64,000 nt of DNA from Hydractinia symbiolongicarpus. Lineage: Eukaryota; Cnidaria; Hydrozoa; Anthoathecata; Hydractiniidae. The first letter of the stretch is position 1, and each line of letters opens with the position of its first letter. Positions 1 to 64,000 of this stretch are shown here, piece by piece. Both the position numbers and the translations under genes were made by a program. The stretch is from the NCBI RefSeq assembly GCF_029227915.1, contig NC_079876.1, positions 17,670,001-17,734,000 of the forward strand. The letters are read 5' to 3'. The notes beneath the pieces were generated by a model that was not told where the DNA came from, made no database searches, and was given only the letters and a program-made list of their open reading frames with translations.

Positions 1-145
1 AAGATGATTAGGAGGGCAACTTATTTTTGCCAGCTAATGTTTTCAAGTTGTGCAGACACAAGGGAAATGTATATAATACGAAAGATGTCCTTACTTTGAT
101 CGCAAAAATACCTTACCTGCAATAACTCCAACAATTCTGCTGTCA

Positions 146-217
146 GCGTCGGTGGTGTAAAGGTTAGCATTTTTGCCTTCCAAGCAATAGATCCCGATTC
201 GATTCCCGGCCGACGCA
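146..217 (+). pseudogene. tRNA-Gly relic, class D
   Basis: Class D reference. Bases 49-53 read CCCGA instead of CCGGG, losing pairs 51-63 and 53-61, and the B box starts GA. Acceptor stem, D arm and UCC anticodon are kept. G27T also opens the anticodon stem here. It may still fold weakly; called a relic. Confidence 0.65.
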
Positions 218-291
218 TTTCGCTACTAGATTACAAGTTCTAGTCTATTAAATTCAGTACGTGTCGTTTCTACTTTGAAGATGATTAGGAG

Positions 292-308
292 GGCAACTTG
301 TTTTTGCC
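292..308 (+). other. Spacer hairpin with T run in the loop
   Basis: GGCAA and TTGCC pair around CTTGTTT in the common spacer haplotype. The T5 at 301-305 lies partly in the loop and partly in the 3' arm. Other haplotypes (GCAAATATTGTTTGGACAG or a long T run) lack this stem. Confidence 0.4.
301..305 (+). terminator. First T run after the tRNA ending at 217
   Basis: T5, 84 bases past the tRNA end, is the first run of four or more Ts for this unit. RNA polymerase III normally stops at T4 or longer on the non-template strand, so a long trailer is predicted. The same T5 recurs in all units with this spacer. Confidence 0.4.
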
Positions 309-429
309 AGGAAATGTTTTCAAGTGGTGAAGACACAAGGGAAATGCATATAATACGAAAGATGTCCTTACTTTGATCGCGAAAGTACCTTACCTGCAAT
401 AACTCCACCAGTTCTTCTGTCAGCGTCGG

Positions 430-440
430 TGGTGTAAAGG
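430..440 (+). promoter_or_regulatory. RNA polymerase III A box (reference copy)
   Basis: TGGTGTAAAGG covers tRNA bases 8-19 and agrees with the eukaryotic A-box consensus TRGYNNARNGG bound by TFIIIC. It is intact in consensus copies, changed at G19 in class A, at G18 in class P and at G12 in class M. Confidence 0.8.
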
Positions 441-472
441 TTAGCATTGTTGCCTTCCAAGCAATAGATCCG

Positions 473-483
473 GGTTCGATTCC
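473..483 (+). promoter_or_regulatory. RNA polymerase III B box (reference copy)
   Basis: GGTTCGATTCC matches the B-box consensus GGTTCGANTCC exactly. It is kept in consensus, A and N copies, becomes GGTTCGGTTCC in class G, GATTCGATTCC in class D, GTTTCGATTCC in class V and GGTTCACTTCC in class P. Confidence 0.85.
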
Positions 484-503
484 CGGCCGACGCATTTCGC
501 TGC

Positions 504-524
504 TAGATTACATGTTCTAGTCTA
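504..524 (+). other. Trailer hairpin with one G-T pair
   Basis: TAGATTA and TAGTCTA flank a 7-nt loop CATGTTC, starting ten bases after the tRNA. All seven positions pair if one G-T wobble is allowed. It would form in any 3' extended transcript. Function unknown. Confidence 0.5.
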
Positions 525-594
525 TTAAATTCAGTACGTGTCGTTTCTACTTTGAAGGTGATTAGCAGGGCAAATATTGTTTGGACAGTTAATG

Positions 595-598
595 TTTT
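595..598 (+). terminator. First T4 after the reference tRNA
   Basis: GTTTTC, about 100 bases past the tRNA end at 494, is the first T4 for units whose spacer contains the GCAAATATTGTTTGG block. It predicts either read-through or an unusually long trailer. Confidence 0.35.
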
Positions 599-700
599 CA
601 AGTTGTGAAGACACAAGGGAAATGCATATAATACGAAGGATGCCCTTATTTTAATCGCGAAAGTGCCTTACCTGCAATATCTCCAACAGTTCTGCTGTCA

Positions 701-772
701 GCGTCGGTGGTGTAAAAGTTATTATTTTTGTCTTCCAAGCAATAGATCCTGGTTCACTTCCCAGTTGACGCA
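701..772 (+). pseudogene. tRNA-Gly relic, class P
   Basis: Class P reference. The D arm reads GTGT-AAAAGTTA-TTAT: G18 is lost and the stem no longer closes properly. The T arm CCTGGTTCACTTCCCAG has lost A58 and only CTGG/CCAG still pairs. The 3' acceptor strand TTGACGC pairs through two G-T wobbles. Both A and B boxes are damaged, yet the loop CTTCCAA is unchanged. Confidence 0.8.
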
Positions 773-977
773 TTTGGCTGCTAGATATGATGTTCTAGTC
801 TATTAAATTATGTATGTGTGGGTTCTCCTTTGAAGATGATTAGGAGGGCAACTTGTTTTTGCCGGCTAATGTTTTCAAGTTGTGCAGACACAAGGGAAAT
901 GCATATAATACGAAAGATGTCCTTACTTTGATCGCGAAAATACCTTACCTGCAATAACTCCAACAATTCTGCTGTCA

Positions 978-1049
978 GCGTCGGTGGTGTAAAGGTTAGC
1001 ATTGTTGCCTTCCAAGCAATAGATCCCGATTCGATTCCCGGCGGACGCA
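978..1049 (+). pseudogene. tRNA-Gly relic, class D2
   Basis: Class D2 reference. T stem as class D plus C67G, which breaks pair 6-67. Anticodon UCC kept. Confidence 0.7.
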
Positions 1050-1254
1050 TTTGGCCGCTAGATTACATGTTCTAGTCTATTAAATTCCGTACGTGTGGTT
1101 TCTGCTTTGAAGGTGATTAGGAGGGTAAATTTTTTTGGACAGTTAATGTTTTCAAGTTGTGAAGACACAAAAGAAATGCATGTAATACGAAAGATGCCCT
1201 TATTTTGATCGCGAAAGTACCTTACCTGTAATAACTTCAACAAGTATCCTGTCA

Positions 1255-1326
1255 GCGTCGGTGGTGTAAAGGTTAGCATTGTTGCCTTCCAAGCAATAGA
1301 TTCGGGTTCGATTCCCGGCCGACGCA
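1255..1326 (+). tRNA. trnG(ucc): tRNA-Gly(UCC), C49T form
   Basis: Differs from consensus only at C49T, which pairs with G65 as a wobble. All other stems, both promoter boxes and the anticodon are intact. This form recurs at a fixed place in the 5-kb higher-order repeat. Confidence 0.88.
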
Positions 1327-1531
1327 TTTGGCTGCTAGACTACATGTTCTAGTCTAATAAATTCAGTACGTGTCGTTTCTACTTTGAAGGTGATTAGGAA
1401 AGCAAATTTTGTTGGACAGTTAATGTTTTCAAGTTGTGAAAACACAAGGGAAGTGCATATAATACGAAAGATGCCCTTATTTTGATCGCGAAAGTACCTT
1501 ACCTGCAATAACTCCAACAATTCTGCTGCCA

Positions 1532-1603
1532 CCGGCGGTGGTGTAAAGGTTAGTATTGTTGCCTTCCAAGCAATAGATCCGGGTTCGATTCCCGGTCGAC
1601 GCA
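1532..1603 (+). pseudogene. tRNA-Gly relic, class C
   Basis: Class C reference. The 5' strand is CCGGCGG (G1C, T4G), so pairs 1-72 and 4-69 of the acceptor stem are lost, and C23T weakens the D stem. With upstream bases it makes the perfect palindrome CCACCGGCGGTGG. T66 gives a wobble with G7. T arm, boxes and UCC anticodon are sound, so it may still be transcribed. Confidence 0.6.
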
Positions 1604-1808
1604 TTTGGCTGCTAGACTACATGTTCTAGTCTATTAAATTCAGTACGTGTCGTTTCTACTTTGAAGGTGATTAGGAGGACAATTTTTTTTTGACACTTAT
1701 TGTTTTCAAGTTATGAAGACACAAGGGAAATGCATATAATTCTAAAGATGCCCTTATTTTGATCGCGAAAGTACCTTACCTGTAATAACTCCAACAATAC
1801 TTCTGTCA

Positions 1809-1880
1809 GCGTCGGTGGTGTAAAAGTTATTATTTTTGTCTTCCAAGCAATAGATCCTGGCTCACCTCCCAGGTGACGCA
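1809..1880 (+). pseudogene. tRNA-Gly relic, class P
   Basis: T arm is CCTGG-CTCACCTC-CCAGG, an alternative 5-bp stem with an 8-nt loop and no B box. Confidence 0.8.
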
Positions 1881-2085
1881 TATGGCTGCTAGATATGATG
1901 TTCTAGTCTATTAAATCCTGTACGTGTGGGTTCTCCTTTGAAGATGATTAGGATGGCAACTTATTTTTGCCAGCTAATGTTTTCAAGTTGTGCAGACACA
2001 AGGGAAATGTATATAAAACGAAAGATGTCCTTACTTTAATCGCGAAAATACCTTACCTGCAATAACTCCAACAATTCTGCTGTCA

Positions 2086-2157
2086 GCGTCGGTGGTGAAA
2101 AGGTTAGCATTGTTGCCTTCCAAGCAATAGATCCCGATTCGATTCCCGGCCGACGCA
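2086..2157 (+). pseudogene. tRNA-Gly relic, class D
   Basis: Class D with T13A (A box TGGTGAAAAGG). Confidence 0.65.
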
Positions 2158-2362
2158 TTTCGCTACTAGATTACATGTTCTAGTCTATTAAATTCAGTAC
2201 GTGTCGTTTCTACTTTGAAGATGATTAGGAGGGCAACTTGTTTTTGCCAGAAAATGTTTTCAAGTGGTGAAGACACAAGGGAAATGCATATAATACGAAA
2301 GATGTCCTTACTTTGATCGCGAAAGTACCTTACCTGCAATAACTCCACCAATTCTTCTGTCA

Positions 2363-2434
2363 GCGTCGGTGGTGTAAAGGTTAGCATTGTTGGATTCCAA
2401 GCAATAGATCCGGGTTCGATTCCCGGCCGACGCA
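2363..2434 (+). tRNA. tRNA-Gly(UCC), GGATTCC variant
   Basis: C31G and C32A change the anticodon arm to GTTGG-ATTCCAA-GCAAT, losing pair 31-39. U33 and anticodon UCC, acceptor stem, D arm and T arm are consensus. The form recurs six times. Confidence 0.6.
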
Positions 2435-2639
2435 TTTCGCTGCTAGATTACATGTTCTAGTCTATTAAATTCAGTACGTGTGGGTTCTCCTTTGAAGATG
2501 ATTAGGAGGGCAACTTGTTTTTGCCGGCTAATGTTTTCAAGTTGTGCAGACACAAGGGAAATGCATATAATACGAAAGATGTCCTTACTTTGATCGCGAA
2601 AATACCTTACCTGCAATAACTCCAACAATTCTGCTGTCA

Positions 2640-2711
2640 GCGTCGGTGGTGTAAAGTTTAGCATTGTTGCCGTCTAAGCAATAGATCCCGATTCGATTCC
2701 CGGCGGACGCA
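2640..2711 (+). pseudogene. tRNA relic, class D2, anticodon changed to UCU
   Basis: G19T in the D loop, loop CGTCTAA: U33 becomes G and position 36 becomes T, so positions 34-36 read UCU (Arg). With the D2 T arm this is unlikely to work. Confidence 0.7.
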
Positions 2712-2916
2712 TTTGGCCGCTAGATTACATGTTCTAGTCTATTAAATTCCGTACGTGTGGTTTCTGCTTTGAAGGTGATTAGGAGGGCAAATTTTTTTGG
2801 ACAGTTAATGTTTTCAAGTTGTGAAGACACAAAAGAAATGCATGTAATACGAAAGATGCCCTTATTTTGATCGCGAAAGTATCTTACCTGTAATAACTCC
2901 AACAATTATCCTGTCA

Positions 2917-2988
2917 GCGTCGGTGGTGTAAAGGTTAGCATTGTTGCCATGCAAGCAATAGATCCGGGTTCGATTCCCGGCCGACGCA
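2917..2988 (+). tRNA. tRNA-Gly body with anticodon UGC (Ala)
   Basis: Consensus except the loop CATGCAA, where T33 is A and C35 is G, giving anticodon UGC. The rest of the cloverleaf is perfect. Loss of U33 would impair decoding; identity in the cell is uncertain. Confidence 0.65.
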
Positions 2989-3195
2989 TTTGGCTGCTAG
3001 ACTACATGTTCTAGTCTATTAAATTCAGTACGAGTTGTTTCTACTTTGAAGGTGATTAGGAAGGCAAATTTTTGTTTGGACAGTTAATGTTTTCAAGTTG
3101 TGAAAACACAAGGGAAGTGCATATAATACGAAAGATGCCCTTATTTTGATCGCGAAAGTACCTTACCTGCAATAACTCCAACAATTCTGCTGCCA

Positions 3196-3265
3196 CCGGC
3201 GGTGGTGTAAAGTTAGTATTGTTGCCTTCCAAGCAATAGATCCGGTTTCGATTCCGGTTGACCCA
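3196..3265 (+). pseudogene. tRNA-Gly relic, class C with deletions
   Basis: Reference for the C-deletion form: class C 5' end, one G lost from the D loop, a shortened T arm GGTTTCGATTCCGG and tail TTGACCCA. 70 nt. Confidence 0.8.
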
Positions 3266-3470
3266 TTTGACTGCTTGTTTTGATGCTCTAGTCTATTAAA
3301 TTGTGTACGTGTGGGTTCTCCTTTGAAGATGATTAGAAGGGCAACTTGTTTTTGCCAGAAAATATTTTCAAGTTGTGAAGACACAAGGGAAATGCATATA
3401 ATACGAAAGATGTCCTTACTTTGATCGCGAAAGTACCTTACCTGCAATAACTCCAACAATTCTGCTGCCA

Positions 3471-3542
3471 CCGGCGGTGGTGTAAAGGTTAGTATTGTTG
3501 CCTTCCAAGCAATAGATCCGGGTTCGATTCCCGGTCGACGCA
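3471..3542 (+). pseudogene. tRNA-Gly relic, class C
   Basis: Class C with C66T; duplicate of the copy at 1532. Confidence 0.6.
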
Positions 3543-3747
3543 TTTGGCTGCTAGACTACATGTTCTAGTCTATTAAATTCAGTACGTGTCGTTTCTACTT
3601 TGAAGGTGATTAGGAGGACAATTTTTTTTTGACACTTATTGTTTTCAAGTTATGAAGACACAAGGGAAATGCATATAATTCTAAAGATGCCCTTATTTTG
3701 ATCGCGAAAGTACCTTACCTGTAATAACTCCAACAATACTTCTGTCA

Positions 3748-3819
3748 GCGTCGGTGGTGTAAAAGTTATTATTTTTGTCTTCCAAGCAATAGATCCTGGC
3801 TCACCTCCCAGGTGACGCA
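3748..3819 (+). pseudogene. tRNA-Gly relic, class P
   Basis: Same CCAGG T arm as the copy at 1809, its 1,939-bp duplicate. Confidence 0.8.
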
Positions 3820-4024
3820 TATGGCTGCTAGATATGATGTTCTAGTCTATTAAATCCTGTACGTGTGGGTTCTCCTTTGAAGATGATTAGGATGGCAACT
3901 TATTTTTGCCAGCTAATGTTTTCAAGTTGTGCAGACACAAGGGAAATGTATATAAAACGAAAGATGTCCTTACTTTAATCGCGAAAATACCTTACCTGCA
4001 ATAACTCCAACAATTCTGCTGTCA

Positions 4025-4096
4025 GCGTCGGTGGTGAAAAGGTTAGCATTGTTGCCTTCCAAGCAATAGATCCCGATTCGATTCCCGGCCGACGCA
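4025..4096 (+). pseudogene. tRNA-Gly relic, class D
   Basis: Class D with T13A; duplicate of 2086. Confidence 0.65.
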
Positions 4097-4301
4097 TTTC
4101 GCTACTAGATTACATGTTCTAGTCTATTAAATTCAGTACGTGTCGTTTCTACTTTGAAGATGATTAGGAGGGCAACTTGTTTTTGCCAGAAAATGTTTTC
4201 AAGTGGTGAAGACACAAGGGAAATGCATATAATACGAAAGATGTCCTTACTTTGATCGCGAAAGTACCTTACCTGCAATAACTCCACCAATTCTTCTGTC
4301 A

Positions 4302-4373
4302 GCGTCGGTGGTGTAAAGGTTAGCATTGTTGGATTCCAAGCAATAGATCCGGGTTCGATTCCCGGCCGACGCA
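4302..4373 (+). tRNA. tRNA-Gly(UCC), GGATTCC variant
   Basis: C31G, C32A; duplicate of 2363. Confidence 0.6.
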
Positions 4374-4578
4374 TTTCGCTGCTAGATTACATGTTCTAGT
4401 CTATTAAATTCAGTACGTGTGGGTTCTCCTTTGAAGATGATTAGGAGGGCAACTTGTTTTTGCCGGCTAATGTTTTCAAGTTGTGCAGACACAAGGGAAA
4501 TGCATATAATACGAAAGATGTCCTTACTTTGATCGCGAAAATACCTTACCTGCAATAACTCCAACAATTCTGCTGTCA

Positions 4579-4650
4579 GCGTCGGTGGTGTAAAGTTTAG
4601 CATTGTTGCCGTCTAAGCAATAGATCCCGATTCGATTCCCGGCGGACGCA
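4579..4650 (+). pseudogene. tRNA relic, class D2, anticodon UCU
   Basis: G19T and loop CGTCTAA; duplicate of 2640. Confidence 0.7.
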
Positions 4651-4857
4651 TTTGGCCGCTAGATTACATGTTCTAGTCTATTAAATTCCGTACGTGTGGT
4701 TTCTGCTTTGAAGGTGATTAGGAGGGCAAATTTTTGTTTGGACAGTTAATGTTTTCAAGTTGTGAAAACACAAGGGAAGTGCATATAATACGAAAGATGC
4801 CCTTATTTTGATCGCGAAAGTACCTTACCTGCAATAACTCCAACAATTCTGCTGCCA

Positions 4858-4927
4858 CCGGCGGTGGTGTAAAGTTAGTATTGTTGCCTTCCAAGCAATA
4901 GATCCGGTTTCGATTCCGGTTGACCCA
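4858..4927 (+). pseudogene. tRNA-Gly relic, class C with deletions
   Basis: 70 nt, same deletions as 3196. Confidence 0.8.
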
Positions 4928-5132
4928 TTTGACTGCTTGTTTTGATGCTCTAGTCTATTAAATTGTGTACGTGTGGGTTCTCCTTTGAAGATGATTAGAA
5001 GGGCAACTTGTTTTTGCCAGAAAATATTTTCAAGTTGTGAAGACACAAGGGAAATGCATATAATACGAAAGATGTCCTTACTTTGATCACGAAAGTACCT
5101 TACCTGCAATAACTCCAACAATTCTGCTGTCA

Positions 5133-5204
5133 GCGTCGGTGGTGTAAAGATTAGCATTGTGGCCTTCCAAGCAATAGATCCGGGTTCGATTCCCGGCCGA
5201 CGCA
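5133..5204 (+). tRNA. tRNA-Gly(UCC), class A variant
   Basis: Class A reference. G19A removes the base that normally pairs with C56 between the D and T loops, and T29G makes a G-A mismatch with A41 in the anticodon stem (GTGGC/GCAAT). Acceptor stem, T arm, B box and UCC anticodon are consensus. A T5 follows 41 bases downstream. Confidence 0.55.
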
Positions 5205-5244
5205 TTAGGCTGTTAGAATTCATGTTCTAGTCTATTAAATTCAG

Positions 5245-5249
5245 TTTTT
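5245..5249 (+). terminator. T5 in trailer of class A units
   Basis: CAGTTTTTGTGG lies 41 bases after the tRNA ending at 5204. This block follows nearly all class A and most class N units and gives them an earlier stop than other classes. A T9 run at 5284-5292 backs it up. Confidence 0.45.
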
Positions 5250-5409
5250 GTGGTTCCTACTTAAAAGATGATTAGGAGGACAATTTTTTTTTGACACTTA
5301 TTGTTTTCAAGTTGTGAAGACACAAGGAAAATGCATATAATTCTAAAGATGCCCTTATTTTGATCGCGAAAGTACCTTACCTGTAATAACTCCAACAATA
5401 CTTCTGTCA

Positions 5410-5481
5410 GCGTCGGTGGTGTAAAGGTTAGCATTGTTGCCTTCCAAGCAATAGATCCGGGTTCGATTCCCGGCCGACGCA
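5410..5481 (+). tRNA. trnG(ucc): tRNA-Gly(UCC), consensus with TTTT stop
   Basis: All 72 bases are consensus, and the only exact-consensus copy followed directly by a T4. It is the best single candidate for a fully functional gene. Confidence 0.95.
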
Positions 5482-5485
5482 TTTT
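5482..5485 (+). terminator. TTTT directly after an intact tRNA
   Basis: GCATTTTGCT replaces the usual GCATTTCGCT, giving a canonical T4 stop immediately after discriminator A. It is one of only seven such sites in the window. Confidence 0.7.
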
Positions 5486-5687
5486 GCTGCTAGATTACAT
5501 GTTCTAGTCTATTAAATTCAGTACGTGTCGTTTCTACTTTGAAGGTGATTAGCAGGGCAAATATTGTTTGGACAGTTAATGTTTTCAAGTTGTGAAGACA
5601 CAAGGGAAATGCATATAATACGAAGGATGCCCTTATTTTAATCGCGAAAGTGCCTTACCTGCAATATCTCCAACAATTCTGCTGTCA

Positions 5688-5759
5688 GCATCGGTGGTGT
5701 AAAAGTTATTCTTTTTGTCTTCCAAGCAATAGATCCTGGTTCGATTCCCGGCGGACGCA
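5688..5759 (+). pseudogene. tRNA-Gly relic, class P2
   Basis: Class P2 reference: class P 5' half, but the T arm is CCTGG-TTCGATT-CCCGG with C67G, so the B box is restored while the D arm stays broken. C? at base 3 side: the 5' strand here reads GCATCGG (G3A). Confidence 0.75.
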
Positions 5760-5964
5760 TTTGGCCGCTAGATTACATGTTCTAGTCTATTAAATTCCGT
5801 ACGTGTGGTTTCTGCTTTGAAGGTGATTAGGAGGGCAAATTTTTTTGGACAGTTAATGTTTTCAAGTTGTGAAGACACAAAAGAAATGCATGTAATACGA
5901 AAGATGCCCTTATTTTGATCGTGAAAGTACCTTACCTGTAATAACTCCAACAATTATCCTGTCA

Positions 5965-6036
5965 GCGTCGGTGGTGTAAAGGTTAGCATTGTTGCCTTCC
6001 AAGCAATAGATTCGGGTTCGATTCCCGGCCGACGCA
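5965..6036 (+). tRNA. trnG(ucc): tRNA-Gly(UCC), C49T form
   Basis: Only C49T differs; followed by the perfect trailer hairpin. Confidence 0.88.
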
Positions 6037-6045
6037 TTTGGCTGC

Positions 6046-6066
6046 TAGACTACATGTTCTAGTCTA
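6046..6066 (+). other. Trailer hairpin, perfect 7-bp stem
   Basis: TAGACTA and TAGTCTA pair perfectly around CATGTTC, starting ten bases after the tRNA that ends at 6036. This form follows most C49T copies, many class C copies and some class G copies. The sister form at 504-524 has one wobble pair in the same stem, so pairing is kept while sequence changes. Confidence 0.55.
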
Positions 6067-6242
6067 TTAAATTCAGTACGTGTCGTTTCTTCTTTGAAGG
6101 TGATTAGGAAGGCAAATTTTGTTTGGACAGTTAATGTTTTCAAGTTGTGAAAACACAAGGGAAGTGCATATAATACGAAAGATGCCCTTATTTTGATCGC
6201 GAAAGTACCTTACCTGCAATAACTCCAACAATTCTGCTGCCA

Positions 6243-6314
6243 CCGGCGGTGGTGTGAAGGTTAGTATTGTTGCTTTCCAAGCAATAGATCCGGGTTTGAT
6301 TCCCGGCCGACGCA
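6243..6314 (+). pseudogene. tRNA-Gly relic, class C
   Basis: Class C with A14G, C32T and C56T; C66 kept. Confidence 0.65.
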
Positions 6315-6520
6315 TTTCGCTGCTAGATTACATGTTCTAGACTATTAATTTCAGTACGTGTCGTTTCTACTTTGAAGGTGATTAGCAGGGCAAATATTGT
6401 TTGGACAGTTAATGTTTTCAAGTTGTGAAGACACAAGGGAAATGCATATAATGCGAAGGATGCCCTTATTTTGATCGCGAAAGTGCCATACCTGCAATAC
6501 CTCCAACAATTCTGCTGTCA

Positions 6521-6592
6521 GCGTCGGTGGTGTAAAAGTTATTATTTTTGTCTTCCAAGCAATAGATCCTGGTTCACCTCCCAGGTGACGCA
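6521..6592 (+). pseudogene. tRNA-Gly relic, class P
   Basis: T arm CCTGG-TTCACCTC-CCAGG. Confidence 0.8.
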
Positions 6593-6797
6593 TATGGCTG
6601 CTAGATATGATGTTCTAGTCTATTAAATCCTGTACGTGTGGGTTCTCCTTTGAAGATGATTAGGAGGGCAACTTATTTTTGCCAGCTAATGTTTTCAAGT
6701 TGTGCAGACACAAGGGAAATGTATATAATACGAAAGATGTCCTTACTTTGATCGCGAAAATACCTTACCTGCAATAACTCCAACAATTCTGCTGTCA

Positions 6798-6869
6798 GCG
6801 TCGGTGGTGTAAAGGTTAGCATTTTTGCCTTCCAAGCAATAGATCCCGATTCGATTCCCGGCCGACGCA
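6798..6869 (+). pseudogene. tRNA-Gly relic, class D
   Basis: Class D with G27T. Confidence 0.65.
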
Positions 6870-7075
6870 TTTCGCTACTAGATTACAAGTTCTAGTCTAT
6901 TAAATTCAGTACGTGTCGTTTCTACTTTGAAGGTGATTAGCAGGGCAAATATTGTTTGGACAGTTAATGTTTTCAAGTTGTGAAGACACAAGGGAAATGC
7001 ATACAATACGAAGGATGCCCTTATTTTAATCGCGAAAGTGCCTAACCTGCAATATCTCCAACAGTTCTGCTGTCA

Positions 7076-7147
7076 GCGTCGGTGGTGTAAAAGTTATTAT
7101 TTTTGTCTTCCAAGCAATAGATCCTGGTTCACTTCCCAGTTGACGCA
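7076..7147 (+). pseudogene. tRNA-Gly relic, class P
   Basis: Same as the class P reference. Confidence 0.8.
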
Positions 7148-7352
7148 TTTGGCTGCTAGATATGATGTTCTAGTCTATTAAATTATGTATGTGTGGGTTC
7201 TCCTTTGAAGATGATTAGGAGGGCAACTTGTTTTTGCCGGCTAATGTTTTCAAGTTGTGCAGACACAAGGGAAATGCATATAATACGAAAGATGTCCTTA
7301 CTTTGATCGCGAAAATACCTTACCTGCAATAACTCCAACAATTCTGCTGTCA

Positions 7353-7424
7353 GCGTCGGTGGTGTAAAGGTTAGCATTGTTGCCTTCCAAGCAATAGATC
7401 CCGATTCAATTCCCGGCGGACGCA
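7353..7424 (+). pseudogene. tRNA-Gly relic, class D2
   Basis: Class D2 with G57A. Confidence 0.7.
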
Positions 7425-7629
7425 TTTGGCCGCTAGATTACATGTTCTAGTCTATTAAATTCCGTACGTGTGGTTTCTGCTTTGAAGGTGATTAGGAGGG
7501 CAAATTTTTTTGGACAGTTAATGTTTTCAAGTTGTGAAGACACAAAAGAAATGCATGTAATACGAAAGATGCCCTTATTTTGATCGCGAAAGTACCTTAC
7601 CTGTAATAACTTCAACAATTATCCTGTCA

Positions 7630-7701
7630 GCGTCGGTGGTGTAAAGGTTAGCATTGTTGCCTTCCAAGCAATAGATTCGGGTTCCATTCCCGGCCGACGC
7701 A
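7630..7701 (+). tRNA. tRNA-Gly(UCC), C49T with T-loop change
   Basis: C49T plus G57C, which alters the B box to GGTTCCATTCC. Confidence 0.65.
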
Positions 7702-7906
7702 TTTGGCTGCTAGACTACATGTTCTAGTCTAATAAATTCAGTACGTGTCGTTTCTACTTTGAAGGTGATTAGGAAGGCAAATTTTGTTGGACAGTTAATG
7801 TTTTCAAGTTGTGAAAACACAAGGGAAGTGCATATAATACGAAAGATGCCCTTATTTTGATCGCGAAAGTACCTTACCTGCAATAACTCCAACAATTCTG
7901 CTGCCA

Positions 7907-7978
7907 CCGGCGGTGGTGTAAAGGTTAGTATTGTTGCCTTCCAAGCAATAGATCCGGGTTCGATTCCCGGTCGACGCA
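7907..7978 (+). pseudogene. tRNA-Gly relic, class C
   Basis: Class C with C66T. Confidence 0.6.
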
Positions 7979-12062: not shown

Positions 12063-12134
12063 GCGTCGGTGGTGTAAAGGCTAGCATTTTTACCTTCAAA
12101 GCAATAGATCCGGGTTCGATTCCCGGCCGACGCA
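12063..12134 (+). tRNA. tRNA-Gly body with anticodon UCA
   Basis: T20C, G27T, G30A and C36A. The loop CTTCAAA gives anticodon UCA, which would read the UGA stop codon, but the anticodon stem has two mismatches. The duplicate at 42819 still has UCC. Confidence 0.5.
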
Positions 12135-13725: not shown

Positions 13726-13797
13726 GCGTCGGTGGTGTAAAGGCTAGCATTGTTGCCTTTCAAGCAATAGATCCGGGTTCGATTCCCGGCCGACGCA
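13726..13797 (+). tRNA. tRNA-Gly body with anticodon UUC (Glu)
   Basis: T20C and C35T: loop CTTTCAA, anticodon UUC. Every stem and both boxes are otherwise consensus, making this the cleanest Gly-to-Glu anticodon switch in the window. Confidence 0.7.
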
Positions 13798-49188: not shown

Positions 49189-49260
49189 GCGTCGGTGGTG
49201 TAAAAGTTATTATTTTTGTCTTCCAAGCAAAATATCCTGGTTCACTTCCCAGTTGACGCA
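49189..49260 (+). pseudogene. tRNA-Gly relic, class P
   Basis: Variable region CAAAATATCC. Confidence 0.8.
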
Positions 49261-49364
49261 TTTGGCTGCTAGATATGATGTTCTAGTCTAATAAATTCAG
49301 TACGTGTCGTTTCTACTTTGAAGATGATTAGGAAGGCAAATTTTGTTTGGACAGTTAATGTTTT

Positions 49365-49401
49365 CAAGCAATAGATCCGGGTTCGATTCCCGGCCGACGC
49401 A
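49365..49401 (+). pseudogene. 3' half of a tRNA-Gly
   Basis: Only the anticodon 3' arm, T arm and acceptor 3' strand remain (37 nt). The spacer word TTTTCAAG runs straight into CAAGCAATAG; the shared CAAG points to deletion between short homologies. Confidence 0.85.
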
Positions 49402-49785
49402 TTTGGCTGTTAGATTTCATGTTCTAGTCTATTAAATTCAGTTTTTGTGGTTCCTACTTAAAAGATGATTAGGAGGACAAATTTTTTTTGACACTTATTG
49501 TTTTCAAGTTGTGAAGACACAAGGGAAATTCATATAATTCTAAAGATGCCCTTATTTTGATCGCGAAAGTACCTTACCTGCAATACCTCCAACAAATCTG
49601 CTGTCAGCGTCGGTGGTGTAAAAGTTATTATTTTTGTCTTCCAAGCAAAATATCCTGGTTCACTTCCCAGTTGACGCATTTGGCTGCTAGATATGATGTT
49701 CTAGTCTAATAAATTCAGTACGTGTCGTTTCTACTTTGAAGATGATTAGGAAGGCAAATTTTGTTTGGACAGTTAATGTTTTCAA
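49402..49785 (+). repeat. 418-bp duplication, copy 2
   Basis: Same sequence as copy 1 up to TTTTCAAG, where it continues into normal spacer instead of the truncated tRNA. Confidence 0.8.
49607..49678 (+). pseudogene. tRNA-Gly relic, class P
   Basis: 418-bp duplicate of 49189. Confidence 0.8.
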
Positions 49786-56052: not shown

Positions 56053-56258
56053 TTTCGCTGCTAGACTACATGTTCTAGTCTATTAAATTCATTACGTGTC
56101 GTTTCTACTTTGAAGGTGATTAGCAGGGCAAATATTGATTGGATAGTTAATGTTTTCAAGTTGTGAAGACACAAGGGAAATGCATAAAATACGAAGGATG
56201 CCCTTATTTTGATCGCGAAAGTGCCTTACCTGCAATACCTCCAACAATTCTGCTGTCA

Positions 56259-56329
56259 GCGTCGGTGGTGTAAATGTTATTATTTTTGTCTTCCAAGCAA
56301 AAATCCTGGTTCACTTCCCAGTTGACGCA
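56259..56329 (+). pseudogene. tRNA-Gly relic, class P with deletion
   Basis: AAATGTTATT in the D arm and one base lost before the T arm. 71 nt. Confidence 0.85.
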
Positions 56330-56534
56330 TTTGGCTGCTAGATATGATGTTCTAGTCTATTAAATTCTGTACGTGTGGGTTTTCCTTTGAAGATGATTAG
56401 GAGGGCAACTTGTTTTTGCCAGCTAATGTTTTCAAGTTGTGCAGACACAAGGGAAATGCATATAACACGAAAGATGTCCTTACTTTGATCGCGAAAGTAC
56501 CTTACCTGTCATAACTCCAACAATTCTGCTGTCA

Positions 56535-56606
56535 GCGTCGGTGGTGTAAAGGTTGACATTGTTGCCTTTCAACCAATAGATCCGGGTTCGATTCCCGGCC
56601 GACGCA
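56535..56606 (+). tRNA. tRNA-Gly body, class N, anticodon UUC
   Basis: A21G, G22A, C35T, G39C (pair 31-39 lost). Confidence 0.5.
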
Positions 56607-56811
56607 TTTGGCTGTTAGATTTCATGTTCTAGTCTATTAAATTCAGTTTTTGTGGTTCCTACTTAAAAGATGATTAGGAGGACAAATTTTTTTTGACACT
56701 TATTGTTTTCAAGTTGTGAAGACACAAGGGAAATGCATATAATACGAAAGAGGTCCTTACTTTGATCGCGAAAGTACCTTACCTGCAATAACTCCAACAA
56801 TTCTGCTGTCA

Positions 56812-56883
56812 GCGTCGGTGGTGTAAAGATTAGCATTGTGGCCTTCCAAGCAATAGATCCGGGTTCGATTCCCGGCCGACGCA
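56812..56883 (+). tRNA. tRNA-Gly(UCC), class A variant
   Basis: G19A, T29G only. Confidence 0.55.
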
Positions 56884-57088
56884 TTTGGCTGTTAGATTTC
56901 ATGTTCTAGTCTATTAAATTCAGTTTTTGTGGTTCCTACTTAAAAGATGATTAGGCGGACAAATTTTTTTTGACTATTATTGCTTTCAAGTTGTGAAGAC
57001 ACAAGGGAAATGCATATAATTCTAAAGATGCCCTTATTTTGATCGCGAAAGTACCTTACCTGTAATAACTCCAACAATTCTTCTGTCA

Positions 57089-57160
57089 GCGTCGGTGGTG
57101 TAAAGGTTAGCATTTTTGCCTTCCAAGCAATAGATCCGGGTTCAATTCCCGGCCGACGCA
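57089..57160 (+). tRNA. tRNA-Gly(UCC), G27T/G57A
   Basis: One anticodon-stem pair lost; B box GGTTCAATTCC. Confidence 0.6.
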
Positions 57161-57364
57161 TTTCGCAACTAGATTATATGTTCTAGTCTATTAAATTCAG
57201 TACGTGTCGTTTCTACTTTGAAGATGATTAGGAGGGCAACTTGTTTTTGCCAGGAAATGTTTTCAAGTTGTGAAGACACAAGGAAATGCATATAATACGA
57301 AGGATGTCCTTACTTTGATCGCGAAAGTACCTTACCTGCAAAAACTCCAACAATACTTTTGTCA

Positions 57365-57436
57365 GCGTCGGTGGTGTAAAGGTTAGCATTGTTGCCTTCC
57401 AAGCAATAGATCCGGGTTCGGTTCCTGGCCGATGCA
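57365..57436 (+). tRNA. tRNA-Gly(UCC), class G variant
   Basis: A58G, C63T, C70T. Confidence 0.58.
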
Positions 57437-57642
57437 TTTCGCTGCTAGACTACATGTTCTAGTCTATTAAATTCAGTACGTGTCGTTTCTACTTTGAAGG
57501 TGATTAGCAGGGCAAGTATTGTTTGGACAGTTAATGTTTTCAAGTTGTGAAGACACAAGGGAAATGCATAAAATACGAAGGATGCCCTTATTTTGATCGC
57601 GAAAGTACCTTACCTGCAATAACTCCAACAATTCTGCTGTCA

Positions 57643-57714
57643 GCGTCGGTGGTGTAAAGATTAGCTTTGTGGCCTTCCAAGCAATAGATCCGGGTTCGAT
57701 TCCCGGCCGACGCA
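57643..57714 (+). tRNA. tRNA-Gly(UCC), class A variant
   Basis: G19A, A24T, T29G. Confidence 0.45.
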
Positions 57715-57919
57715 TTTGGCTGTTACATTTCATGTTCTAGTCTATTAAATTCAGTTTTTGTGGTTCCTACTTAAAAGATGATTAGGAGGACAAATTTTTT
57801 TTGACACTTATTGTTTTCAAGTTGTGAAGACACAAGGGAAATGCATATAATACGTAAGATGCCCTTATTTTGATCGCAAAAGTACCTTACCTGCAATAAC
57901 TCCAACAATTCTGCTGTCA

Positions 57920-57991
57920 GCGTCGGTGGTGTAAAGATTAGCTTTGTGGCCTTCCAAGCAATAGATCCAGGTTCGATTCCCGGCCGACGCA
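57920..57991 (+). tRNA. tRNA-Gly(UCC), class A variant
   Basis: G19A, A24T, T29G, G51A. Confidence 0.4.
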
Positions 57992-58195
57992 TTTGGCTGT
58001 TAGATTTCATGTTCTAGTCTATTAAATTCAGTTTTTGTGGTTCCTACTTAAAAGATGATTAGGAGGACAATTTTTTTTGACACTTATTGTTTTCAAGTTG
58101 TGAAGACACAAGGGAAATGCATATAATTCTAAAGATGCCCTTATTTTGATCGCGAAAGTACCTTACCTGTAATAACTCCAACAATACTTCTGTCA

Positions 58196-58267
58196 GCGTC
58201 GGTGGTGTAAAGGCTAGCATTGTTGCCTTCCAAGCAATAGATCCGGGTTCGTATCCCGGCCGACGCA
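58196..58267 (+). tRNA. tRNA-Gly(UCC), T20C/A58T
   Basis: T loop TTCGTAT loses A58; rest intact. Confidence 0.6.
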
Positions 58268-58350
58268 TTTGGCTACTAGATTACATGTTCTAGTCTATTA
58301 AATTCAGTACGTGTCGTTTCTACTTTGAAGATGATTAGGAAGGCAAATTT

Positions 58351-58440
58351 TGTTTGGACAGTTAATGGACAGTTAATGTTTTCTACTTTGAAGGTGATTA
58401 GGAGGACAAATTTTGTTTGGACAGTTAATGTTTTCAAGTT
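58351..58440 (+). repeat. Scrambled spacer
   Basis: GGACAGTTAAT is present twice back to back. The spacer then jumps from AATGTTTTC to TACTTTGAAGG and restarts, so part of the spacer is repeated. A short slippage plus a junction at shared TTTC explains it. Confidence 0.7.
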
Positions 58441-58536
58441 GTGAAAACACAAGGGAAGTGCATATAATACGAAAGATGCCCTTATTTTGATCGCGAAAGT
58501 ACCTTACCTGCAATAACTCCAACAATTCTGCTGCCA

Positions 58537-58607
58537 CCGGCGGTGGTGTAAAGGTTAGTATTGTTGCCTTCCAAGCAATAGATCCGGTTTCGATTCCGGC
58601 CGACTCA
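58537..58607 (+). pseudogene. tRNA-Gly relic, class C/V hybrid
   Basis: Tail CCGACTCA. 71 nt. Lies just after the scrambled spacer. Confidence 0.75.
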
Positions 58608-58813
58608 TTTGGCTGCTTGTTTTGATGTTCTAGTCTATTAAATTGTGTACGTGTGGGTTCTCCTTTGAAGATGATTAGGAAGGCAAATTTTGTTTGGACA
58701 GTTAATGTTTTCAAGTTGTGAAAACACAAGGGAAATGCATATAATTCTAAAGATGCCCTTATTTTGATCGCGAAAGTATCTTGCCTGTAATAACCCCAAC
58801 AATACTTCTGTCG

Positions 58814-58885
58814 GCGTCGGTGGTGTAAAGGTTAGTATTGTTGCCTTCCAAGCAATAGATCCGGTTTCAATTCCAGGCCGACCCA
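58814..58885 (+). pseudogene. tRNA-Gly relic, class V
   Basis: T arm GGTTTCAATTCCAGG; length back to 72 nt by an extra base. Confidence 0.75.
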
Positions 58886-59090
58886 TTTGGCTGCTTGTTT
58901 TGATGTTCTAGTCTATTAAATTGTGTACGTGTGGGTTCTCCTTTGAAGATGATTAGGTGGGCAACTTGTTTTTGCCAGAAAATATTTTCAAGTTGTGAAG
59001 ACACAAGGGAAATGCATATAATACGAAAGATGTCCTTACTTTGATCGCGAAAGTACCTTACCTGCCATAACTCCAACAATTCTTCTGTCA

Positions 59091-59162
59091 GCGTCCGTGG
59101 TGTAAAGGTTAGCATTGTTGCCTTCCAAGCAATAGATCCGGGTTCGATTCCCGGCCGACGCA
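59091..59162 (+). tRNA. tRNA-Gly(UCC), G6C
   Basis: G6C opens one acceptor pair; rest consensus. Confidence 0.7.
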
Positions 59163-59367
59163 TTTCGCTACTAGATTACATGTTCTAGTCTATTAAATTC
59201 AGAACGTGTCGTTTCTACTTTGAAGATGATTAGGAGGGCAACTTGTTTTTGCCAGGAAATGTTTTCAAGTTGTGAAGACACAAGGGAAATGCATATAATA
59301 CAAAAGATGTCCTTACTTTGATTGCGAAAGTACCTTACCTGCAATAACTCCAACAATTCTGCTGCCA

Positions 59368-59439
59368 GCGTCGGTGGTGTAAAGATTAGCATTGTGGCCT
59401 TCCAAGCAATAGATCCGGGTTCGATTCCTGGCCGACGCA
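59368..59439 (+). tRNA. tRNA-Gly(UCC), class A variant
   Basis: G19A, T29G, C63T. Confidence 0.52.
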
Positions 59440-59644
59440 TTTGGCTGTTGGATTTCATGTTCTAGTCTATTAAAATCAGTTTTTGTGGTTCCAACTTAAA
59501 AGATGATTAGGAGGACAAATTTTTTTTGACACTTATTGTTTTCAAGTTGTGAAGACACAAGGGAAATGCATATAATACGAAGGATGTCCTTACTTTGATC
59601 GCGAAAGTACCTTACCTGCAATAACTCTAAAAATACTTTTGTCA

Positions 59645-59716
59645 GCGTCGGTGGTGTAAAGGTTAGCATTTTTGCCTTCCAAGCAATAGATCCGGGTTCG
59701 GTTCCCGGCCGACGCA
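59645..59716 (+). tRNA. tRNA-Gly(UCC), class G variant
   Basis: A58G, G27T. Confidence 0.58.
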
Positions 59717-59922
59717 TTTCGCTGCTAGACTACATGTTCTAGTCTATTAAATTCAGTACGTGTCGTTTCTACTTTGAAGGTGATTAGCAGGGCAAATATT
59801 GTTTGGACAGTTAATGTTTTCAAGTTTTGAGGACACAAGGGAAATGCATATAATACGAAGGATGCCCTTATTTTGATCGCGAAAGTGCCTTACCTGCAAT
59901 ACCTCCAACAATTCTGCTGTCA

Positions 59923-59994
59923 GCGTCGGTGGTGTAAAAGTTATTATTTTTGTCTTCCAAGCAAAAGATCCTGGTTCACTTCCCAGTTGACGCA
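59923..59994 (+). pseudogene. tRNA-Gly relic, class P
   Basis: Class P with T43A. Confidence 0.8.
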
Positions 59995-60199
59995 TTTGGC
60001 TGCTAGATATGATGTTCTAGTCTATTAAATTCTGTACGTGTGGGTTCTCCTTTGAAGATGATTAGGAGGGCAACTTGTTTTTGCCAGCTAATGTTTTCAA
60101 GCTGTGCAGACGCAAGGGAAATGCATATAACACGAAAGATGTCCTTACTTTGATCGCGAAAGTACCTTACCTGTCATAACTCCAACAATTCTGCTGTCA

Positions 60200-60271
60200 G
60201 CGTCGGTGGTGTAAAGGTTGACATTGTTGCCTTTCAAGTAATAGATCCGGGTTCGATTCCCGGCCGACGCA
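60200..60271 (+). tRNA. tRNA-Gly body, class N, anticodon UUC
   Basis: A21G, G22A, C35T, C40T (wobble). Confidence 0.55.
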
Positions 60272-60476
60272 TTTGGCTGTTAGATTTCATGTTCTAGTCT
60301 ATTAAATTCAGTTTTTGTGGTTCCTACTTAAAAGATGATTAGGAGGACAAATTTTTTTTGACACTTATTGTTTTCAAGTTGTGAAGACACAAGGGAAATG
60401 CATATAATACGAAAGATGTCCTTACTTTGATCGCGAAAGTACCCTACCTGCAATAACTCCAACAATTCTGCTGTCA

Positions 60477-60548
60477 GCGTCGGTGGTGTAAAGATTAGCA
60501 TTGTGGCCTTCCAAGCAATAGATCCGGGTTCGATTCCCGGCCGACGCA
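60477..60548 (+). tRNA. tRNA-Gly(UCC), class A variant
   Basis: G19A, T29G only. Confidence 0.55.
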
Positions 60549-60753
60549 TTTGGCTGTTAGATTTCATGTTCTAGTCTATTAAATTCAGTTTTTGTGGTTC
60601 CTACTTAAAAGATGACTAGGAGGACAAATTTTTTTTGACACTTATTGTTTTCAAGTTGTGAAGACACAAGGGAAATGCATATAATTCTAAAGATGCCCTT
60701 ATTTTGATCGCGAAAGTACCTTACCTGTAATAACTCCAACAATTCTTCTGTCA

Positions 60754-60825
60754 GCGTCGGTGGTGTAAAGGTTAGCATTGTTGCCTTTCAAGCAATAGAT
60801 CCGGGTTCGATTCCTGGCCGATGCA
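60754..60825 (+). tRNA. tRNA-Gly body with anticodon UUC (Glu)
   Basis: C35T, C63T, C70T; all stems stay paired and A21 is present, so UUC here is not tied to class N. Confidence 0.62.
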
Positions 60826-61031
60826 TTTCGCTGCTAGACTACATGTTCTAGTCTATTAAATTCATTACGTGTCGTTTCTACTTTGAAGGTGATTAGCAGG
60901 GCAAATATTGTTTGGATAGTTAATGTTTTCAAGTTGTGAAGACACAAGGGAAATGCATAAAATACGAAGGATGCCCTTATTTTGATCGCGAAAGTGCCTT
61001 ACCTGCAATACCTCCAACAATTCTGCTGTCA

Positions 61032-61102
61032 GCGTCGGTGGTGTAAAGGTTAGCATTGTTGCCTTCCCAGCAATAGATCCGGTTTCGATTCCAGCCGACC
61101 CA
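61032..61102 (+). pseudogene. tRNA-Gly relic, class V
   Basis: A37C (loop CTTCCCA). 71 nt. Confidence 0.75.
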
Positions 61103-61307
61103 TTTGGCTGCTTGTTTTGATGTTCTAGTCTATTAAATTGTGTACGTGTGGGTTCTCCTTTGAAGATGATTAGGAGGGCAACTTGTTTTTGCCAGAAAAT
61201 ATTTTCAAGTTGTGAAGACACAAGGGAAATGCATATAATACGAAAGATGTCCTTACTTTGATTGCGAAAGTACCTTACCCGCAATAACTCCAACAATTCT
61301 TCTGTCA

Positions 61308-61379
61308 GCGTCGGTGGTGTAAAGGTTAGCATTGTTGCCTTCCAAGCAATAGATCCGGGTTCGATTCCCGGCCGACGCA
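61308..61379 (+). tRNA. trnG(ucc): tRNA-Gly(UCC), consensus
   Basis: All 72 bases consensus. Confidence 0.93.
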
Positions 61380-61584
61380 TTTCGCTACTAGATTACATCT
61401 TCTAGTCTATTAAATTCAGAACGTGTCGTTTCTACTTTGAAGATGATTAGGAGGGCAACTTGTTTTTGCCAGGAAATGTTTTCAAGTTGTGAAGACACAA
61501 GGGAAATGCATATAATACAAAAGATGTCCTTACTTTGATCGCGAAAGTACCTTACCTGCAATAACTCCAACAATTCTGCTGTCA

Positions 61585-61652
61585 GCGTCGGTGGTGTAAA
61601 GATTAGCATTGTGGCCAGGCAATAGATCCGTGTTTGATTCCCGGCCGACGCA
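61585..61652 (+). pseudogene. tRNA-Gly relic, class A with anticodon deleted
   Basis: 68 nt: GTGGCCAGGCAATAG, four bases including the anticodon are gone; G52T and C56T. Confidence 0.85.
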
Positions 61653-61858
61653 TTTGGCTGTTGGATTTCATGTTCTAGTCTATTAAATTCAGTTTTTGTG
61701 GTTCCTACTTAAAAGATGATTAGGAGGACAAATTTTTTTTTGACACTTATTGTTTTCAAGTTGTGAAGACACAAGGGAAATGCATATAATTCTAAAGATG
61801 CCCTTATTTTGATCGCGAAAGTACCTTTCCTGTAATAACACCAACAATTCTTCTGTCA

Positions 61859-61930
61859 GCGTCGGTGGTGTAAAGGTTAGCATTGTTGCCTTCCAAGCAA
61901 TAGATCCGGGTTCGATTCCCGGCCGACGCA
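61859..61930 (+). tRNA. trnG(ucc): tRNA-Gly(UCC), consensus
   Basis: All 72 bases consensus. Confidence 0.93.
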
Positions 61931-62135
61931 TTTCGCTACTAGATTACATGTTCTAGTCTATTAAATTCAGTAAGTGTCGTTTCTACTTTGAAGATGATTA
62001 GGAGGGCAACTTGTTTTTGCCAGGAAATGTTTTCAAGTTGTGAAGACACAAGGGAAATGCATATAATACGAAGGATGTCCTTACTTTGATCGCGAAAGTA
62101 CCTTACCTGCAATAACTCCAACAATACTTTTGTCA

Positions 62136-62207
62136 GCGTCGGTGGTGTAAAGGTTAGCATTGTTGCCTTCCAAGCAATAGATCCGGGTTCGGTTCCCGGC
62201 CGACGCA
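62136..62207 (+). tRNA. tRNA-Gly(UCC), class G variant
   Basis: A58G only. Confidence 0.65.
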
Positions 62208-62413
62208 TTTCGCTGCTAGACTACATGTTCTAGTCTATTAAATTCAGTACGTGTCGTTTCTACTTTGAAGGTGATTAGCAGGGCAAATATTGTTTGGACA
62301 GTTAATGTTTTCAAGTTTTGAAGACACAAGGGAAATGCATATAATACGAAGGATGCCCTTATTTTGATCGCGAAAGTGCCTTACCTGCAATACCTCCAAC
62401 AATTCTGCTGTCA

Positions 62414-62485
62414 GGGTCGGTGGTGTAAAAGTTATTATTTTTGTCTTCCAAGCAAAAGATCCTGGTTCACTTCCCAGTTGACGCA
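62414..62485 (+). pseudogene. tRNA-Gly relic, class P
   Basis: Class P with C2G and T43A. Confidence 0.8.
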
Positions 62486-62690
62486 TTTGGCTGCTAGATA
62501 TGATGTTCTAGTCTATTAAATTCTGTACGTGTTGGTTCTCCTTTGAAGATGATTAGGAGGGCAACTTGTTTTTGCCAGCTAATGTTTTCAAGTTGTGCAG
62601 ACACAAGGGAAATGCATATAATACGAAAGATGTCCTTACTTTGATCGCGAAATTACCTTACCTGTCATAACTCCAACAATTCTGCTGTCA

Positions 62691-62762
62691 GCGTCGGTGG
62701 TGTAAAGGTTGACATTGTTGCCTTCCAAGCAATAGATCCGGGTTCGATTCCCGGCCGACGCA
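62691..62762 (+). tRNA. tRNA-Gly(UCC), class N variant
   Basis: A21G, G22A; anticodon UCC, unlike class N copies at 48.9-60.3 kb. Confidence 0.7.
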
Positions 62763-62967
62763 TTTGGCTGTTAGATTTCATGTTCTAGTCTATTAAATTC
62801 AGTTTTTGTGGTTCCTACTTAAAAGATGATTAGGAGGACAAATTGTTTTTGACACTTATTGTTTTCAAGTTGTGAAGACACTAGGGAAATGCATATAATA
62901 CGTAATATGCCCTTATTTTGATCGTGAAAGTACCTTACCTGCCATAACTCCAACTATTCTGCTGTCA

Positions 62968-63039
62968 GCGTCGGTGGTGTAAAGGTTAGCATTGCTGCCT
63001 TCCAAGCAATAGATCCGGGTTCGATTCCCGGCCGACGCA
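62968..63039 (+). tRNA. tRNA-Gly(UCC), T28C, with TTTT stop
   Basis: T28C opens one anticodon-stem pair; rest consensus. Confidence 0.7.
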
Positions 63040-63043
63040 TTTT
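63040..63043 (+). terminator. TTTT directly after a tRNA variant
   Basis: T4 abuts the gene end at 63039; duplicated at 63486. Confidence 0.6.
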
Positions 63044-63181
63044 GCTACTAGATTACATGTTCTAGTCTATTAAATTCAGTACGTGTCGTTTCTACTTTAA
63101 AGATGATTAGGAGGGCAACTTGTTTTTGCCAGGATTGTTTTCAAGTTGTGAAGACACAAGGGAAATGCATATAATACGAAA

Positions 63182-63208
63182 ATCCGGGTTCGATTCCCGG
63201 CCGACGCA
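63182..63208 (+). pseudogene. 3' fragment of a tRNA-Gly
   Basis: Only the T arm and acceptor 3' strand remain (27 nt), fused to spacer AATACGAAA. Confidence 0.85.
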
Positions 63209-63413
63209 TTTGGCTGTTAGATTTCATGTTCTAGTCTATTAAATTCAGTTTTTGTGGTTCCTACTTAAAAGATGATTAGGAGGACAAATTGTTTTTGACA
63301 CTTATTGTTTTCAAGTTGTGAAGACACTAGGGAAATGCATATAATACGTAATATGCCCTTATTTTGATCGTGAAAGTACCTTACCTGCCATAACTCCAAC
63401 AATTCTGCTGTCA

Positions 63414-63485
63414 GCGTCGGTGGTGTAAAGGTTAGCATTGCTGCCTTCCAAGCAATAGATCCGGGTTCGATTCCCGGCCGACGCA
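63414..63485 (+). tRNA. tRNA-Gly(UCC), T28C, with TTTT stop
   Basis: 446-bp duplicate of 62968. Confidence 0.7.
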
Positions 63486-63489
63486 TTTT
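63486..63489 (+). terminator. TTTT directly after a tRNA variant
   Basis: T4 abuts the gene end at 63485; copy of the site at 63040. Confidence 0.6.
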
Positions 63490-63689
63490 GCTACTAGATT
63501 ACATGTTCTAGTCTATTAAATTCAGTACGTGTCGTTTCTACTTTAAAGATGATTAGGAGGGCAACTTGTTTTTGCCAGGATTGTTTTCAAGTTGTGAAGA
63601 CACAAGGGAAATGCATATAATACGAAAAATGTCCTTACTTTGATCGCGAAAGTACCTTACCTGCAATAACTCCAACAATTCTGCTGCCA

Positions 63690-63761
63690 CCGGCGGTGGT
63701 GTAAAGGTTAGTATTGTTGCCTTCCAAGCAATAGATCCGGGTTCGATTCCCGGCCGACGCA
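63690..63761 (+). pseudogene. tRNA-Gly relic, class C
   Basis: Class C acceptor strand and C23T; T arm and tail consensus. Confidence 0.6.
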
Positions 63762-63966
63762 TTTCGCTACTAGATTACATGTTCTAGTCTATTAAATTCA
63801 GTACGTGTCGTTTCTACTTTTAAGATGATTAGGAGGGCAACTTGTTTTTGCCAGGAAATGTTTTCAAGTTGTGAAGACACAAGGGAAATGCATATAATAC
63901 AAAAGATGTCCTTACTTTGATCGCGAAAGTACCTTACCTGCAATAACTCCAACAATTCTGCTGCCA

Positions 63967-64000
63967 CCGGCGGTGGTGTAAAGGTTAGTATTGTTGCCTT
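63967..64000 (+). pseudogene. tRNA-Gly relic, class C, cut by window end
   Basis: First 34 bases of a class C copy (CCGGCGG start, C23T). Confidence 0.6.

Follow-up and report, generated by a model that had tools for sequence, protein, structure and literature searches.

The array and its repeat unit

The window, i.e. the whole 64,000-nucleotide stretch of Hydractinia symbiolongicarpus DNA analyzed here (C2:17670001-17734000), covers part of a roughly 405-kb array that lies near the middle of C2 (C2:17438289-17843129) in an assembly of 480,894,487 bases and 76 contigs. Both ends of the array are beyond the window, as originally predicted. Tandem Repeats Finder (TRF), nhmmer and an alignment of the units also bear out the predicted uninterrupted arrangement, with the window forming one head-to-tail run of 277-bp units (Table 1). 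The TRF run returned four main rows, with a period of 277 or 276, that jointly span positions 1-64000 except for 58368-58379. A nhmmer search with one unit as query recovered 233 matches including partial ones, all on the + strand and separated from their neighbors by gaps of at most 12 bases, with the final 36 bases of the window lacking a unit match; no reverse-strand self match was found within the window. About 232 units had been claimed, and we define 228, namely 225 of 272-280 bp on the + strand and three irregular ones, of which that of 418 bp is a probable scar of unequal recombination. The 225 full-size units show a mean pairwise identity of 88.7%, and with 202 of the 225 aligned units being distinct the earlier description of the array as near-uniform was too strong. 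The longest exact repeat within the window is 1316 bp, the string of unit classes recurs across tens of kilobases, and exact repeats of 404-596 bp are present at offsets of 30.8-33.0 kb. Thus, the array displays both the block duplication of units and the long head-to-tail reiteration of a short unit that are expected of a satellite.

Table 1. Features of the window, in positions of the 64,000-nucleotide stretch
Feature	Position	Strand	Basis
Part of the tRNA-Gly(UCC) array inside the window, 225 full-size 277-bp units	1..64000	+	TRF, nhmmer, unit alignment
Reference unit (tRNA part 423-494, spacer 495-699)	423..699	+	nhmmer seed; RF00005 66.6 bits at 423-494
Exact copy of the consensus tRNA-Gly(UCC) 72-mer	423..494	+	RF00005 66.6 bits; 72-mer in 20/225 aligned units
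Relic with a low score (31.8 bits), of class C; A57C and two T-stem pairs mismatched	701..772	+	RF00005, unit classes
Anticodon-shifted copy, TCA	12063..12134	+	ARAGORN
Anticodon-shifted copy, TTC (1 of 11 in the window)	13726..13797	+	ARAGORN
Irregular unit, 418 bp	49189..49606	+	TRF, unit alignment
Irregular unit, 341 bp	58196..58536	+	unit alignment
Irregular unit, 446 bp	62968..63413	+	TRF, unit alignment

In the parts that were read, the array runs on the + strand up to 17738934 with a single insert at 17480454-17483208, and beyond this point it comprises inverted blocks and several inserts. Its middle (17500001-17670000) is represented by eight samples (22 kb), all of them array and all on the + strand, and one 3277-bp locus, about 145 kb being inferred; the total is probably about 1,350 units, that is more than a thousand copies. 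Averaged over 8-kb bins, units are 85-87% identical at the left end and 88-89% identical in the window; the mean drops to 81% close to the right edge and peaks at 93.5% in the bin starting at 17484 kb. Inserts in the array carry reverse-transcriptase domains: one such frame, aligned over 72% of its length, shares 93% identity with a Hydractinia symbiolongicarpus protein, and over 80% it shares 96% identity with another protein. Three 3867-bp inserts at C2:17759965-17780443 are about 99.9% identical to one another. A potassium-channel-like gene (Pfam Ion_trans) is found in the left flank, a putative 7TM-like frame, judged by eye, is seen in the right flank, and Rfam had no match over ten flank loci (56 kb).

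Decay and constraint in the tRNA part

The original prediction held that the consensus 72-mer would score as a tRNA in a covariance search, and it indeed reaches 66.6 bits with RF00005 against a cut-off of 29. In the window 205 copies (103+102) pass this cut-off with scores up to 67.3 bits and hence conform to the cloverleaf model; no other Rfam family rises above its cut-off in the window, with the unit showing only weak matches below it. ARAGORN reported 189 tRNAs, all on the + strand, comprising 169 Gly(TCC) and 20 anticodon mutants (11 TTC, 4 TGC, 2 TCT, 2 TTT and 1 TCA). Hence, the claim that each unit holds a tRNA-Gly(UCC) gene or relic stands for the tRNA-derived part as such, but not every unit is a tRNA-Gly. 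Across 740 units from about 235 kb, read as two contiguous stretches, the anticodons are 655 TCC, 52 TTC, 13 TCT, 7 TCG and 7 TGC, with others being fewer.

Under our strict definition an intact copy keeps each of the 21 stem pairs together with 15 fixed bases, the latter being positions taken as invariant in tRNAs. Only 35 of the 225 window units satisfy this definition, and in this respect most of them do not match a functional tRNA-Gly(UCC) gene. In the two contiguous stretches the corresponding figure is 94 of 740, about one in eight, rising to 180 if one stem mismatch is allowed; it is 14 of 76 for the samples from the middle, one of 133 at the right end (17793320-17844000) and 24 of 60 in 17483000-17500000. 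Judged by our own A- and B-box patterns, both boxes are kept in 289 of 767 units, with the B box exact in 373. These totals (740, 76, 767 and, below, 793) differ because units lacking a full tRNA part or a near full length were excluded. Since stems are disrupted or fixed bases missing in most copies that were read, the array copies do not appear to be individually kept functional.

Recent changes were estimated from 195 disjoint nearest pairs of the 767 units (776 substitutions). The non-CpG rate is 2.86 per tRNA site versus 2.55 per spacer site, and in each of the two parts CpG sites evolve more quickly. At the deep scale non-CpG diversity is 0.102 in the tRNA part versus 0.130 in the spacer, a difference to be read against the 43 of 277 rotations of the unit that are equally low. 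Pairing is preserved in 966 of 2352 single stem changes (41%), versus 19% under uniform substitution; we did not count this as constraint, because transition bias may account for it. Together the recent rates and the deep-scale diversities suggest that there is no detectable per-copy constraint on the tRNA part. Unit positions 97-108 were also considered as a conserved element: they showed 3 of 523 differences at first and an unremarkable 26 of 776 with disjoint pairs and more units, and the initial signal is put down to an effect of overlapping pairs.

Dispersed tRNA-Gly(UCC) genes

A pattern search of the genome yielded 636 matches (586 forward, 50 reverse), and among the matches listed at least 23 copies are outside the array, on C1, C2, C3, C11 and C13; 17 of these constitute the dispersed set used here. 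Fourteen of the 17 share an identical 72-nucleotide sequence that is found exactly in none of 793 array units, none of the 17 is accompanied by a match to the array spacer, and a run of four or more T (T4+) starts 3-19 nucleotides behind the tRNA in 17 of 17. As the search string favors like sequences, the same exact 34-base string was demanded of the array copies. In this matched control T4+ occurs within 20 nucleotides in 16 of 17 dispersed versus 4 of 147 array copies; the latter, accordingly, typically lack the close terminator of a functional tRNA gene. All 17 dispersed copies have T at position 66, as opposed to one of the 147 array copies, of which 127 have C, and the remaining 38 tRNA bases have their commonest form in 15 of 17 versus 56 of 147. 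Strictly intact array copies are no better equipped, with T4+ within 20 nucleotides in 3 of 108. When all 793 array units are taken in any state, with position 72 as the assumed end of the tRNA (which indels move slightly), 69 have T4+ within 20 nucleotides and 150 have T66, so that T66 alone is no mark of a dispersed gene. In 213 of the 225 window units the tRNA is followed by TTT, with longer T runs being found further downstream; given these, read-through transcripts of the array might still be trimmed to tRNA. By these sequence features the array resembles a lineage of its own that lacks the usual terminator, and the dispersed genes are the most likely source of the cell's Gly(UCC) tRNA.

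Origin of the array and its relation to known tRNA arrays

The original prediction left two possibilities open, namely a genuine gene family of high copy number and a satellite into which a tRNA gene had been captured. The latter is the better supported, because strictly intact copies are few, recent changes reveal no constraint, T4+ runs are scarce and nearly uniform Gly(UCC) genes exist separately. We therefore conclude with good confidence that the array is a satellite that arose from a tRNA-Gly(UCC) gene and spread on chromosome 2, that its copies are not functionally kept and that its host obtains the tRNA from dispersed genes. The founder would have been a single tRNA-Gly(UCC) gene along with about 205 bp of flank, from which unequal exchange and block duplication could have generated the roughly 405 kb on chromosome 2, and the copies probably have no major role in translation. 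Several observations count against this reading, namely that about one in eight copies is strictly intact, that 205 window copies exceed the Rfam cut-off and that 289 of 767 units have both boxes. So do the slightly lower deep-scale diversity of the tRNA part and the preservation of stem pairs above the level of uniform substitution.

That the locus is instead a working high-copy array kept for Gly(UCC) dosage, with the decayed copies as by-products, is unlikely: it would accommodate the 94 of 740 strictly intact copies with their concentration in 17483000-17500000 (24 of 60), the units with both box patterns and the Rfam scores of up to 67.3 bits, but the substitution rate of the tRNA part is not lowered, T4+ follows within 20 nucleotides in just 3 of 108 intact copies and nearly uniform dispersed genes are present. 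TFIIIC binds at B boxes. One could also picture the array as being kept as a chromatin element, in which B boxes bind TFIIIC to form a boundary or compaction block in mid-chromosome 2, with Pol III transcription being unproductive because terminators are missing; we regard this as a rather improbable role. Derivation from a tRNA-derived SINE, i.e. a tRNA head with an unrelated body that was retrotransposed and then tandemly amplified, would explain why a tRNA-like head precedes about 205 bp of unrelated sequence. It is nevertheless very unlikely, since all places among the 219 full-unit matches listed, in a search that scores the best candidates only, belong to the C2 array, the spacer matches at none of the 17 dispersed tRNA-Gly copies and the consensus unit has no A-rich or simple tail. 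A false expansion or collapse in assembly, for which the nearly identical 3867-bp inserts could conceal a copy-number error, is extremely unlikely, gross artefact being argued against by a longest exact repeat of 1316 bp versus a HiFi read N50 of 13.2 kb in the HSymV2.0 report (66x, contig N50 28.8 Mb, 482.9 Mb in 84 sequences; PMC10411563), and by tRNA arrays that section 14 of PMC11067881 also describes in the differently made H. echinata assembly.

The proposed tRNA-born satellite has to be seen against tandem tRNA arrays that are already published for the genus: according to section 14 of Schnitzler et al. (2024, PMC11067881), both Hydractinia genomes contain such arrays of tRNAs for all 20 amino acids, whose significance the authors consider unclear and which they argue are not artefacts. 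The present array shares their roughly even spacing, similar tRNA copies and similar spacers and joins this known kind, which weakens the earlier emphasis on the rarity of a one-isoacceptor satellite. There is no mention in that section of this particular locus, nor of its size, decay or lack of terminators; we found no literature on this particular array, which the supplementary tables of PMC11067881 may list. The contrast in decay and terminators is absent from that section and from the passages on Nematostella and fish clusters in Bermudez-Santana et al. (2010, PMC2888827). According to these passages Nematostella has more than 17,000 tRNA genes and pseudogenes, 89% of them clustered, but its neighbor pairs are mostly heterogeneous, whereas the present array consists of one isoacceptor and its anticodon mutants.

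Among more distant systems, the Entamoeba arrays in the relevant part of Tawari et al. (PMC2652664) likewise consist of tandem units holding tRNA genes. However, those units contain up to five tRNA genes and are mostly uniform, with nearly all tRNA genes arrayed, whereas here such unit uniformity is absent, decay affects most copies and the nearly uniform genes are found at other loci. The human 1q23.3 tRNA VNTR, as outlined in Darrow and Chadwick (2014, PMC4041453), is also a tandem unit with tRNA genes, but one of 7.3 kb, GC-rich, with five tRNA genes, 98% identity, 9-43 copies and CTCF binding. One-isotype duplicates are also described for plants in the sections of PMC12652284 on tandem genes, e.g. 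27 tRNA-Pro in Arabidopsis; their copies number in the tens (2 to 110 per cluster where the genes are non-identical), as against hundreds to a thousand here. In Acropora a 5S/snRNA array is on record, as noted in a passage of PMC8167085.

These findings suggest that a satellite of about 400 kb can arise from a tRNA gene while nearly uniform genes are retained at other loci. They also suggest that, in such a genome, raw tRNA counts give too high a number of functional genes. Base 66, C in the array versus T in the dispersed genes, offers a marker for which of the two sets is expressed, provided that it is read along with the rest of the gene.

Inserts and anticodon variants within the array

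The array is broken by several inserts (see table), three of which, each 3867 bp long, share 99.87-99.92% mutual identity, with the copy in L021 containing reverse-transcriptase and endonuclease domains. This near-identity may reflect either a recent duplication of the block or a problem of copy number in the assembly. Among the other inserts, those in L027 and L028 are 98.5% identical, and that in L019 is 95.8% identical to the insert in L026. Units with a TTC anticodon are enriched at the left end of the array (C2:17438000-17481000), accounting for 37 of 148 there versus 11 of 230 in the window, and just 2 of 51 units with TTC have a tRNA that is intact apart from its anticodon.

Array inserts and grouped Gly(UCC) copies on contig C2 (L numbers: separately read C2 stretches in the array region)
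Feature	Position	Remark
3867-bp insert, copy 1	L021:5965-9831	within C2:17759965-17780443
3867-bp insert, copy 2	L022:3994-7860	within C2:17759965-17780443
3867-bp insert, copy 3	L023:2577-6443	within C2:17759965-17780443
Insert	L017:454-3208	reverse-transcriptase domain
Insert	L019:4935-5770	at orientation switch
Insert	L026	
Insert	L027:520-3603	
Insert	L028:4969-8371	reverse-transcriptase domain
Four-copy group	C2:5940294-5945135	
Four-copy group	C2:10741341-10746199	
Four-copy group	C2:11461664-11466505	

tRNA-like sequence beyond the array

Among the matches listed, the three groups of four Gly(UCC) copies share almost the same set of spacings (894, 2319-2339 and 1592-1595 bases) and are probably duplicated blocks. 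A further tRNA array, with a period of ~1.3 kb and many copies of equal score, lies at C3:8380323-8446286. A loose first pass with the Rfam tRNA family RF00005 over the whole assembly gave 49,105 tRNA-like candidates, only 63 of them scored, which suggests that the Hydractinia symbiolongicarpus genome may be very rich in such sequence.
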